40,607 nucleotides of DNA, from positions 1 through 40,607 of the IMG/VR virus record IMGVR_UViG_3300021437_000044; one strand, given 5' to 3'. Source of the stretch: a virus. Of the stretch, positions 36,831 through 40,162 are shown one piece after another. The translations under genes and the position numbers were made by a program. Positions within the stretch are counted from its first letter, which is position 1. Every line of letters starts with the position of its first letter. A model generated the notes under the pieces. The model was given only the letters and a program-made list of their open reading frames with translations. It searched no databases and was not told the DNA's origin.

Positions 36831-38314
36831 TTGATTTTCGACTTCCCTTGGCGGATATTTTGCGAAATGATAAAGCTCAATACGTCAGGCGATGGTGGTG
36901 TGGCGATTTTTTCCCAAGCAGGCTTGATATTGAATTTTTCCTGATATTTGAAAAACGCCCAGCTATCCTTCATGCCTTTTGACCGAGCATAAAACACAAG
37001 CCCTTGGTAAAACGCTTTTTTGTATTCGCTTGTGTGTACTCCAACAGCTTTTTTCTTTCCGTCGCTGTTTAGCTCTTCCATCTTGCCCGCGACCGTTACG
37101 ACCTCGTTCCGTAATGGCTTAACGTGTCCACATTGTACGCATGGATTGCCACCGTTTATACGCCCACACTTCGGGCATTTTGCGTCCTCTTTTTCTTTTT
37201 TGCTTGGCTCTTTTTTGCTTGCTTTATCTGGCGCGCTGGTCAATTCAGTCACGCCAGAACCGTAAAGCTCGTTCCATTGTTCAGAAAAACGAATCCAATT
37301 GTTGCCGTGGTCTTGGATTACAGCGAACTCCTTAGATTGGTGTAATCTTGCGCCGCGCCCTATCATCTGCACAAACTTGGAAAATGACTTTTTGACCGCT
37401 TTTGCGAGTATCACAAAATCAATATCTGACTGGTCAAAGCCGCGCTCCAATATCTCCGAGCTAATGACTAGCTTGATTTGAGTATCTGGCTTCTTAAATT
37501 CAGCCAACACTTCAGATTTGAATTCGTCGCTATCATTGGATGAAATCTGAACTGCCATTACTCCAGCTTCATTGAATTTTTGCATTAAGTCCTGCCCGTG
37601 CGCAATGCCTGAGCTAAACACAATGCCCTTGCGTTGTTCGCCGTAAATCTGATTAGTCAGCCGAATGTAATCAGCAACTACATCGCCAGTGATACGGCGG
37701 GCTCGGTCTTCCATGCCCTTCTTTTCAAACTCGCCCGTGTTATCAATCTTCAGTCCATCCACATCAATCTCACTAGCCGCGAATACCCTGAATGGCACAA
37801 GATGACCATCATCTACCAACTCGCGCATGGTGATGACATTGGTGACCGAGCTAAAATGTTCCGCGAGTTTTGGATTAAATGGCGTAGCAGTCGCGCCGAT
37901 GATTTTCATGCTAGGGAAGAGCTTAATCATTTCAACCACGCTCTTACGCATCGAAGCATGAACCTCGTCGATAAAGCAAATATCAAACTTTGGTAGCCCG
38001 TCCATGCGTTCAAGCGTCTGTGCGCTGGCTACTTGGATTCGTCTATCTGGTCTCCACCGCCAGTGCTGCGCCATGATTACGCCGTGGTCAATTCCAGCAT
38101 GGTCAAGGTGTGCAGAAAATTGCTCTACCAATACCCGACGCTCACAAACAAACAGTACACGAGAGTCTTTTTCCATCGCCAGCTTAATCATTTCCAGCAT
38201 GATTATCGACTTGCCCGCACCAGTGGCAGCGCATAGCACTTGGCGCGTATGACCATTTCTAAACCCTTCGCGTAGGGATTGGATGGAATTTTCTTGATAT
38301 GGGCGGAGTTTCAT
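36827..38314 (-). CDS. SF2 DEAD/DEAH-type helicase, 495 aa
   Basis: The motor motifs are clear: Walker A ATGAGKS (30-36), DEVH (116-119), the SAT-like ATATP (141-145), and a C-terminal RecA domain with IGRGAR (motif VI). After about residue 375 comes a Lys-rich linker and a zinc ribbon CPKCGRINGGNPCVQCG, then a C-terminal helical part. It is a UvsW/RecG-like remodeller by fold; its likely role is phage DNA replication or repair. It is coupled to the primase and ParB genes by ATGA overlaps. Confidence 0.92.
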   Translation of the reverse strand: MKLRPYQENSIQSLREGFRNGHTRQVLCAATGAGKSIIMLEMIKLAMEKDSRVLFVCERRVLVEQFSAHLDHAGIDHGVIMAQHWRWRPDRRIQVASAQTLERMDGLPKFDICFIDEVHASMRKSVVEMIKLFPSMKIIGATATPFNPKLAEHFSSVTNVITMRELVDDGHLVPFRVFAASEIDVDGLKIDNTGEFEKKGMEDRARRITGDVVADYIRLTNQIYGEQRKGIVFSSGIAHGQDLMQKFNEAGVMAVQISSNDSDEFKSEVLAEFKKPDTQIKLVISSEILERGFDQSDIDFVILAKAVKKSFSKFVQMIGRGARLHQSKEFAVIQDHGNNWIRFSEQWNELYGSGVTELTSAPDKASKKEPSKKEKEDAKCPKCGRINGGNPCVQCGHVKPLRNEVVTVAGKMEELNSDGKKKAVGVHTSEYKKAFYQGLVFYARSKGMKDSWAFFKYQEKFNIKPAWEKIATPPSPDVLSFIISQNIRQGKSKIK

Positions 38315-39138
38315 TTTTTAGATAACAAAGCGCGTTGTGATGCGCATTGTTTTTTGAGTTCTGCGTTTTCACGCATCAAGATATCCCTGCTAGACGTTAC
38401 CGCTGCAAGGTTGATTTTTAATTGCGCATTTTCATGTCGCAACTCCTCCAGCAACAATTTAGCAGATGCGCGTTCCTCATCGCTTACGCCAAGCGATACC
38501 ACGGCAAGCCTATCTTGTAGCTCGATAATCGTATCGTGCGCCGCATCAAGTTCAGTGTATTCATCCTCTGGTTCGGCTTTCGGCTGTTGATTTTCAACTG
38601 CGGGAATATCGTCAGAGTGCGCACGGGGCGCACTTTTAAAGTCGTTTGTTACAACATCTTCATTACTATTTGATTGTAATGCGATTTTCTTGTTTTTTGC
38701 TGTTTTATCCTGTGCCGACCACCCATTTCTTACTTCACCGACTAGCTTATCGCCAACTGCGCACATCTTGGCAATGTCTCGATTGCTAAAACACGACCAC
38801 TCTTCATCTGCTAATGCAATTTCAACTGACTTGCGTTTATCGGCATTAGTGCGCGGTAAGCCATGCGCGCTATTGGCACTAAGGCTGTATCTCTGCGCGT
38901 CGCGTTTAGTGCCTACTCGCACATCCTCTAGGATGGTAAGCGCACCAATTAAACGATGCGCGTGGAAGCGATGCCAGCCATCAGCGATATAGTAGGACGT
39001 ACCATCAAAAAACAACACAATCGGCGGCAACTCTACGCCATTGGTTAATGCTTCTGCATATTCAGCGACCACTTGCTGGTTGATTACTACGCGAGATTGT
39101 GTACCTTCAGTGATTGTTATTTTGTTTAACTCGATCAT
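38311..39138 (-). CDS. ParB/Srx-domain DNA-binding protein with coiled-coil tail, 275 aa
   Basis: The N-terminal ParB-like nuclease domain shows ADGWHRFHAHRLIGA (G-x-H-R-x-x-A, about 52-66) after ELPPIVLFFDG. A middle HTH-like part (NADKRKSVEIALADEEWSCFSNRDIAKMC) follows, then a charged linker and a long C-terminal coiled coil (about 195-275). ParB-like phage proteins can act as replication or partition regulators. AAAGGA precedes the ATG. It is the first gene after the hairpin-rich leader. Confidence 0.85.
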   Translation of the reverse strand: MIELNKITITEGTQSRVVINQQVVAEYAEALTNGVELPPIVLFFDGTSYYIADGWHRFHAHRLIGALTILEDVRVGTKRDAQRYSLSANSAHGLPRTNADKRKSVEIALADEEWSCFSNRDIAKMCAVGDKLVGEVRNGWSAQDKTAKNKKIALQSNSNEDVVTNDFKSAPRAHSDDIPAVENQQPKAEPEDEYTELDAAHDTIIELQDRLAVVSLGVSDEERASAKLLLEELRHENAQLKINLAAVTSSRDILMRENAELKKQCASQRALLSKK

Positions 39139-39155
39139 AATTTTCCTTTAGACGT

Positions 39156-39234
39156 AAAAAAGCCGCTTTAGTCTCGAATCTACCTCTGGCAGGAGTGTGG
39201 ATGACCACCAAAAGAATCGAGATTAAAACGGCTT
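39156..39234 (-). terminator. Long-stem terminator/attenuator before the ParB-like gene
   Basis: Arms 39160-39181 and 39213-39234 pair over 22 positions (19 Watson-Crick, one G-U, two mismatches), and six T follow on the minus strand (39156-39161). The 31-base loop can form two smaller stems (GTGG/CCAC and CCT/AGG). It lies between a promoter and the replication operon, so it is either the end of a small RNA or a regulated attenuator. Confidence 0.7.
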
Positions 39235-39251
39235 GAGTGACTGCCATCACC
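39156..39251 (-). ncRNA. Candidate structured small RNA, about 95 nt
   Basis: A transcript from the promoter at 39258-39286 would start near 39251 and end in the T run at 39156-39161, so nearly all of it is the long hairpin. This compact promoter-hairpin-terminator layout before replication genes recalls RNA immunity of P4 (CI RNA) and P1/P7 (C4 antisense RNA). I recall sequence resemblance of the loop to C4-type RNAs, but cannot test it here. A 46-codon ORF (39107-39247) also reads through it. Confidence 0.5.
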
Positions 39252-39257
39252 GTGCGA

Positions 39258-39286
39258 ATTATGCCAAAAAAAATCCACCCCGTCAA
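39258..39286 (-). promoter_or_regulatory. Sigma70-like promoter (TTGACG-N17-CATAAT)
   Basis: On the minus strand the -35 TTGACG (39281-39286) lies in the loop of the upstream terminator hairpin, and the -10 CATAAT is at 39258-39263, 17 bases apart. It is the best candidate for driving the small RNA and, through read-through, the ParB-helicase-primase operon. Confidence 0.75.
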
Positions 39287-39296
39287 GAGGTGGATT
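39266..39296 (-). terminator. Intrinsic terminator downstream of the tRNA genes
   Basis: An 8-bp perfect stem (AATCCACC / GGTGGATT) with a 9-base loop is followed by eight T on the minus strand. The promoter -35 box for the next transcript is inside its loop. Confidence 0.8.
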
Positions 39297-39300
39297 AAAA

Positions 39301-39317
39301 CGCGCTATTGCAGCGCG
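39301..39317 (-). repeat. Hairpin just upstream of the terminator
   Basis: CGCGCT and AGCGCG form a perfect 6-bp stem with a 5-base loop. TTTT follows on the minus strand, so it may be a weak terminator of its own. Confidence 0.6.
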
Positions 39318-39370
39318 AGGAGGGAAAAGTAACCAGACGGTTTGAGCATCGACCGCTACGCAGTCCAGCA

Positions 39371-39393
39371 TTTACGATACAGAGCCACGTAAA
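39371..39393. repeat. Hairpin TTTACG/CGTAAA
   Basis: A 6-bp inverted repeat with an 11-base loop, part of the hairpin chain between tRNA and terminator. Confidence 0.4.
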
Positions 39394-39416
39394 CTCTAGG
39401 CTTGCCTGGTGTTAAT

Positions 39417-39494: not shown

Positions 39495-39571
39495 TGGTGG
39501 GACAAGCAGGAATTGAACCTGCGACCGAGGCATTATGAGTACCCTGCTCTAACCATCTGAGCTATCGTCCC
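39495..39571 (-). tRNA. tRNA-Met (CAT anticodon)
   Basis: A full cloverleaf can be drawn: acceptor GGGACGA/TTGTCCC (one G-U), D arm GCTC...GAGC, anticodon loop CTCATAA on a 5-bp stem with two G-U pairs, T arm GCAGG TTCAATT CCTGC, discriminator A and an encoded CCA. The CAT anticodon means Met, or Ile if the C is changed to lysidine. Phage tRNAs often supplement host decoding. Confidence 0.92.
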
Positions 39572-39576
39572 GTAAT

Positions 39577-39652
39577 TGGTTGCGAATGACTGGATTTGAA
39601 CCAGCGACCTTGAGATTATGAATCTCCTGCTCTACCACTGAGCTACATCGCA
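39577..39652 (-). tRNA. tRNA-like gene with CAT anticodon and bulged acceptor stem
   Basis: D arm (GCTC...GAGC), anticodon loop TTCATAA and T arm (GCTGG TTCAAAT CCAGT) are present, and CCA is encoded. The acceptor stem pairs only if one T on the 3' side is bulged, and the top anticodon-stem pair is G-A. So this may be a degraded tRNA, a specialised one, or a sequence with a one-base error. Confidence 0.7.
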
Positions 39653-39829: not shown

Positions 39830-39987
39830 GTGAAAAATCTACGCTTCCCAACATAAACATGCTTTCCGCCATTACGCCGCTTGCTTAGTTTGCATTTATT
39901 ACACAAGGTATTCCATAGCATAATACCAGCGGTTTTTTGATGCGATTTGGTCTCTGTGCGGAATTTTGCGAGTTCATTTGGTGTCAT
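39811..39987 (-). CDS. Small zinc-ribbon protein, 58 aa
   Basis: The ATG overlaps the end of the upstream HTH gene by 14 bases, so the pair is probably translated together. The product has a helical start (MTPNELAKFRTETKSHQK) and two CxxC knuckles (CNKC and CADC) separated by a 21-residue basic Gly/Arg/Lys loop, which predicts a zinc ribbon that binds nucleic acid. I know no named family. Confidence 0.6.
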   Translation of the reverse strand: MTPNELAKFRTETKSHQKTAGIMLWNTLCNKCKLSKRRNGGKHVYVGKRRFFTCADCL

Positions 39988-40162
39988 GTTTGGCTACCAT
40001 TAAATCAAATTTACGCTTGTGAGTTAATAGCCACTTAGCAGGTATTCCAGACTTGCGCCATTTTTGCACCCGTGGACGACCAACGCCCAGCAATGCGGCT
40101 AACTTAGCCACGCCACCATAAGCGTCAATCACTTTGTTTGAGTATTCAGTATTTTTTAGCAT
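39974..40162 (-). CDS. YdaS/Cro-like helix-turn-helix regulator, 62 aa
   Basis: A short HTH protein: YSNKVIDAYGGVAKLAALLGVGRPRVQKWRKSGIPAKWLL is the pattern of YdaS-like antitoxin/Cro-type regulators. It is divergent from the plus-strand operon at 40213 and next to a palindrome, as expected for an early repressor. The gene has only a weak ribosome binding site. Confidence 0.82.
   Translation of the reverse strand: MLKNTEYSNKVIDAYGGVAKLAALLGVGRPRVQKWRKSGIPAKWLLTHKRKFDLMVAKHDTK

Follow-up and report, generated by a model that had tools for sequence, protein, structure and literature searches.

A predicted promoter-driven small RNA with mutually complementary loops ahead of a phage ParB-helicase-primase operon: a probable member of a phage RNA family

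Does the hairpin in front of the replication genes of an environmental phage simply end transcription, or is it part of a regulatory RNA? We studied this in the window, by which we mean the whole 40.6-kb IMG/VR phage record analysed. On its minus strand, a Cro/YdaS-like regulator gene (39974-40162, phrog_8008) is followed by two tRNA-like genes, noncoding DNA, the hairpin RNA (named RNA1 below), a ParB-like gene (38311-39138, ATG at 39138, phrog_1033), a ResIII helicase gene, a primase-like gene and, further on, NinB. This order resembles that of lambda pR, and the regulator gene lies upstream in the same operon of this type, which reads leftward. The ParB-like gene is the first of the ParB-helicase-primase operon that the initial annotation had placed behind the hairpin, an assignment that PHROGs and Pfam confirmed. 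In the DNA between the regulator and the hairpin, Rfam reported two tandem tRNA genes (39498-39651, minus strand) and ARAGORN found one (39495-39571, tRNA-Met, CAT). The stretch 39460-39320 was of ordinary folding stability (z = -0.10), and a weak abiF-RNA-like match was seen in noncoding DNA at 39332-39409 on the minus strand (22.9 bits versus a gathering threshold of 37), with no abiF gene noticed.

Promoter and hairpins of the window element

A sigma70-type promoter was identified on the minus strand at 39286-39258, as had been proposed. It consists of a -35 box TTGACG (39286-39281), a 17-nt spacer and a -10 box CATAAT with TG in front (39263-39258), and it agrees with the consensus at 10 of 12 positions, which makes it one of only three sites this good in the 12.6 kb scanned. 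The -35 box sits within the loop of an intrinsic terminator further upstream, AATCCACCTC-TTGAC-GGGGTGGATT followed by a T run (39296-39272, minus strand); terminator and promoter are fused. This is a second strong terminator, with a T8 tail and a fold z-score of -4.45, and the same fusion was found in at least six relatives (L265, L271, L278, L285, L289 and L312). Tandem hairpins with a CCTCC stretch at 39265-39325 (minus strand) bore a weak likeness to the Betaproteobacteria toxic sRNA (23.5 bits versus a gathering threshold of 50); this and abiF were permissive Rfam near-matches, both far under gathering.

From this promoter, transcription is predicted to start at about 39251 and to end in the T run at 39161-39156, giving an RNA of about 96 nt (RNA1, 39251-39156, minus strand), close to the 95-nt hairpin RNA first suggested. 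Read from the sequence, its 5′ end forms a hairpin, P0 (39251-39236, minus strand), in which GGTGA and TCACT enclose the loop TGGCAG. Behind it stands the long hairpin P2, an intrinsic terminator at 39234-39160 (minus strand). The 22-position stem and the six T's described earlier were both confirmed, with arms at 39234-39213 and 39181-39160, few mismatches and a 31-nt loop; the stem begins 23 nt past the -10 box and 17 nt past the predicted start, rather than about 15 bases after the promoter as originally stated. The P0 loop (39246-39241, minus strand), which begins at +6, is complementary to CTGCCA at 39192-39187 (minus strand) in the P2 loop, and the two may form a 6-bp kissing or pseudoknot contact, P1. 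Folding of 39251-39150 gave -38.5 kcal/mol (z = -5.05), and none of 200 shuffled sequences folded equally well; in the fold of the window, CTGCCA had an alternative pairing within the P2 loop, as a competing inner stem. The 23 nt at 39142-39164 (minus strand), around the T run and the ribosome-binding site, exactly matched Acinetobacter phages (E 0.04), and these were rejected as relatives, since there the match is part of an ordinary terminator plus ribosome-binding site.

A covarying RNA family in phages

Relatives of the ParB-like protein (L002-L010, L094-L235) were often preceded, on the same strand, by a long-stem, long-loop, T-tailed hairpin of unrelated sequence. There were 39 such hairpins in 1.07 Mb of ParB-relative loci, and terminase control loci contained 6 in 0.92 Mb. 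In most of the 39, the 5′ leader was complementary to the loop, usually beside the 3′ arm, whereas this arrangement was found in 0 of the 6 controls. MW202674 (L237) contains the hairpin closest in sequence to that of the window. A search pattern for the outer stem, designed partly on that of the window, then matched at least 120 IMG/VR stretches, and 102 distinct sequences among the matches listed showed complementarity between leader and loop (P1) over 6 bp or more. As an independent control, we used a second pattern, the inner stem of another subfamily, which gave 80 distinct matches. Sixty of these carried a P1 of at least 7 bp, representing 20 distinct P1 sequences, and a T run was found in all 60, versus 2 of the 20 matches lacking P1.

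The RNA1 family comprises more than 150 sequences in IMG/VR. It was present in 36 of the 44 phage records searched, with one sense copy per record, and the roughly 690 bacterial genomes searched yielded no convincing copy. Three of the four bacterial candidates (L358-L361), namely L359-L361, were ordinary terminators as judged by eye. RNA1 appears to be phage-bound, and the coding genes near it vary, being replication genes in some phages and capsid or scaffold genes in others, in both orientations.

To describe the common structure, we aligned 56 nonredundant RNAs, with the window excluded. The combined P0, P1 and P2 structure paired in 93.1% of cells versus 73.3% after shuffling, with a covariation score of 0.540 versus 0.180 (reached in 0 of 500 shuffles), and slid versions of the structure scored at most 0.107. 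P1 alone was paired in 95.1% of cells, with double changes at 6 of 7 pairs; across the alignment one P1 pair read GC in 31 RNAs, AU in 11, CG in 8 and UA in 3. The members had been selected to have a P1 of 6 bp or longer, which somewhat inflates the paired percentage of P1, although 102 of the distinct sequences among the 120 stretches listed qualified; the invariant outer pairs stem from the search pattern and are of no evidential value. P0 also covaries in the family. The frequent G-U pairs in P0 and P2 suggest an RNA rather than a DNA structure.

In the 92 members measured, P0 has at least 4 bp in 80, P2 is 18-22 long and P1 is mostly 6-9 bp, chiefly 7-8 bp. P1 starts most often at +6 or +7, and its distance to P2 has modes at 7-8 and 12-14. 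A promoter agreeing at 9 or more of 12 positions precedes 72% of members versus 2.7% of random segments. Judged by sequence comparison, RNA1 is thus a unit of promoter, P0 hairpin, P1 between the P0 and P2 loops, and a P2 ending in U's.

The window hairpin is probably a divergent member of this family. Its predicted start lies 6 nt ahead of P1, and its spacings match those of the family, with a P1-to-P2 distance of 8 and a P2 of 22. The P0 and P2 loops are complementary, though P1 is only 6 bp and lies 5-6 nt away from P2, shorter and less adjacent than the typical P1, which usually adjoins P2. The chance that P0 would present a loop-complementary 6-mer near the 3′ end of the loop was estimated at p of about 0.003-0.007. 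With a covariance model of P0 and P2 built without the window, the window matched at 39261-39154 with 33.7 bits (E 9.6e-6), a score within the 30-41 bits that ordinary AAGCCG..CGGCTTTTTT terminators of bacterial genomes reach under the same model. The model found L237, L005, L011, L099, L137 and L160 at 52-88 bits and had zero matches in 841 kb of other loci.

A second structured RNA and proposed read-through of RNA1

Directly downstream of RNA1 in many relatives, we identified a second conserved and structured RNA of about 250 nt, RNA2, with compensating changes and the motifs GCCUGCAUGGGCUGC, CCUGUCAGCGAGGGAC, GGUGGGACAAG and CACCCUUGGG. It lies just downstream of RNA1 at L237:2540-2785, L106:1471-1740, L113:417-681, L005:5685-5955 and about 80 other loci. 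RNA1 was found just upstream in 79 of 87 RNA2 profile matches, mostly 22-38 nt away, and in 12 of the 15 that lie in loci fetched through ParB and picked regardless of RNA1. The order RNA1-RNA2-ParB was seen in L005, L007 and L156, and the window has RNA1-ParB, with no RNA2 profile match anywhere, noncoding 39497-39318 included. In other members, such as L241, a gene also follows RNA1 directly, and RNA2, being common rather than universal, was not taken as a defining feature of the family. Several loci lacking an RNA2 profile match carry, by eye, similar noncoding sequence behind the T tail, and a conserved noncoding stretch of about 230 nt between RNA1 and ParB (L109:2740-2960 and the same stretch in L122, L125 and L169) is possibly a diverged RNA2.

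Comparison at the sequence level establishes the promoter, P0, P1, P2 and terminator within the family, as well as the coupling to RNA2. Given that RNA2 begins about 30 nt past the T tail of a strong terminator, with no visible room for a promoter of its own, it would most simply be supplied by read-through of transcripts begun at the RNA1 promoter, and RNA1 would then be a self-terminating leader. We propose, with a probability of roughly 0.55, that the window element is a small-RNA gene of the RNA1 family acting as such a self-terminating promoter/leader. The promoter, fused with the upstream terminator, would yield the RNA of about 96 nt, which would fold into P0 and the long terminator hairpin P2 with their mutually complementary loops. 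The majority of transcripts would end at the U-tract of P2 and be released as small RNA, and transcription would continue only to a limited or regulated extent into the downstream sequence, which is RNA2 in most relatives and directly the ParB-helicase-primase operon in the window phage. Going beyond the comparison, we infer a functional window copy, regulated read-through and tuning of termination by P1, either within one molecule or between released and nascent RNA. More tentatively, RNA1 and RNA2 could constitute one RNA system, in which RNA1 is a phage-specific, self-complementary attenuator or feedback regulator of RNA2, kissing in cis or between copies, and in which the window phage wires the switch to the ParB-helicase-primase operon instead.

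The main rival to the leader reading is that RNA1 acts purely in trans, as a stand-alone RNA which, away from its locus, binds a host or phage protein or assembles with other copies through loop-loop pairing in the manner of phi29 pRNA or GOLLD/ROOL RNAs, its terminator merely ending its own transcript. The separate promoter and terminator, the single copy per phage record and the variable coding neighbours and orientations fit such an RNA. In many members the linker between P0 and P2 is only 1-4 nt with a P2 of 20 bp, so that loop-loop contact inside one molecule may be strained and pairing between molecules favoured. However, RNA2 follows at a tight, conserved distance that leaves no obvious space for another promoter, which points to a leader in cis, and we consider the purely trans-acting RNA rather unlikely. 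The loop-loop contact is hypervariable yet strictly self-complementary, suggesting self-recognition in feedback, immunity or assembly. Control of termination before RNA2 or replication genes would make RNA1 an RNA switch in phage development; as an assembling RNA, it would be a small addition to the few RNAs known to have that property. Either reading is directly testable with an RNA of about 100 nt.

Ordinary terminators and known phage RNAs

Could the window hairpin be an ordinary intrinsic terminator before parB, its promoter and 6-nt loop complementarity having arisen by chance? Terminators sharing this outer stem and T tail are frequent and have similar model scores, about 9-11% of comparable sequences show a 6-nt complementarity between leader and loop on its own, and P1 is short. 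Moreover, no close DNA relative of the window was found via the helicase, the stem pattern, terminase contigs or blastn in the collections searched. Nevertheless, terminators seldom have a loop as long as 31 nt, comparable long-loop hairpins were rare in the terminase control loci, and promoter position, P0, P1, spacing and the fused upstream terminator match the family simultaneously, which makes this explanation improbable. The window element is probably more than a terminator, as the initial annotation had supposed: the recurring architecture and the strong covariation in more than 150 phage sequences speak for this view; Rfam yielded no match.

A C4- or P4 CI-type immunity RNA, whose antisense loops block a downstream gene via its leader, is suggested by the position ahead of the replication genes and by hypervariable loops that remain complementary to a leader sequence, recalling P4 seqA/seqB, but it is very unlikely. 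C4 is missing from the Rfam matches of the window at E ≤ 10, and RNA1 has two hairpins rather than three, with its own predicted promoter and terminator instead of release from a longer RNA by processing. Neither the P1 sequence nor its complement shows enrichment in the rest of the relatives' contigs (47/40 observed versus 47 ± 7/45 ± 7), and neither TGGCAG nor CTGCCA lies near the parB start. The C4-type resemblance once noted for the loop, like membership in the P4 CI type, therefore found no support: the Rfam scan lacked C4 at gathering as well, and the fold differs. Of the broader suggestion of RNA-based control of replication genes, termination-based control remains the leading candidate mechanism, whereas C4-like antisense action is disfavoured, the lack of P1 enrichment leaving no antisense target visible.

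P4 CI RNA brings about transcription termination by pairing with leader sites. The C4 RNA of phages P1/P7 has three stem-loops, with a′ and b′ loops complementary to the leader of the target mRNA, and is processed by RNase P from a longer transcript (PMC5320573). Like C4 and P4 CI, RNA1 is a small structured phage RNA before early or replication genes, with variable loops that have a complementary partner and with possible termination control; unlike them, it has its own promoter and terminator and two putatively kissing hairpins, and the partner lies inside the same RNA. C4/P4 CI, pRNA, tmRNA and other Rfam families gave no accepted matches at gathering or in permissive scans. ARAGORN found no tmRNA in the first relatives, and pRNA was not among the Rfam matches for the window at E ≤ 10 or for L239 at E ≤ 5. 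An HDV-like topology was dropped, as no catalytic core was recognized in the sequence.

The phi29 prohead or packaging RNA (pRNA) carries two mutually complementary loops, which vary between phages while the structure is kept (compare PMC12670572). RNA1 shares this feature and a similar length, but it shows no three-way junction or paired ends, and it ends in an intrinsic terminator. Kissing contacts are found in GOLLD and ROOL, large phage RNAs whose function is unknown and which often lie near tRNAs (PMC12286853). RNA1 (about 100-135 nt in this comparison) and RNA2 (about 250 nt) differ from them in size, sequence and fold and have no match in Rfam. Neither RNA1 nor RNA2 belongs to a family in Rfam 15, and no description was found in the open-licence PMC papers searched. 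They are previously undescribed phage RNA families and occur as neighbours in many environmental phages; the newness concerns the families and not a proven mechanism.

In the window, as at lambda tR1, a Cro-like gene and replication genes are separated by an intrinsic terminator, and the window also has NinB downstream. Unlike tR1, RNA1 has its own promoter, a conserved 5′ hairpin and predicted loop-loop pairing.
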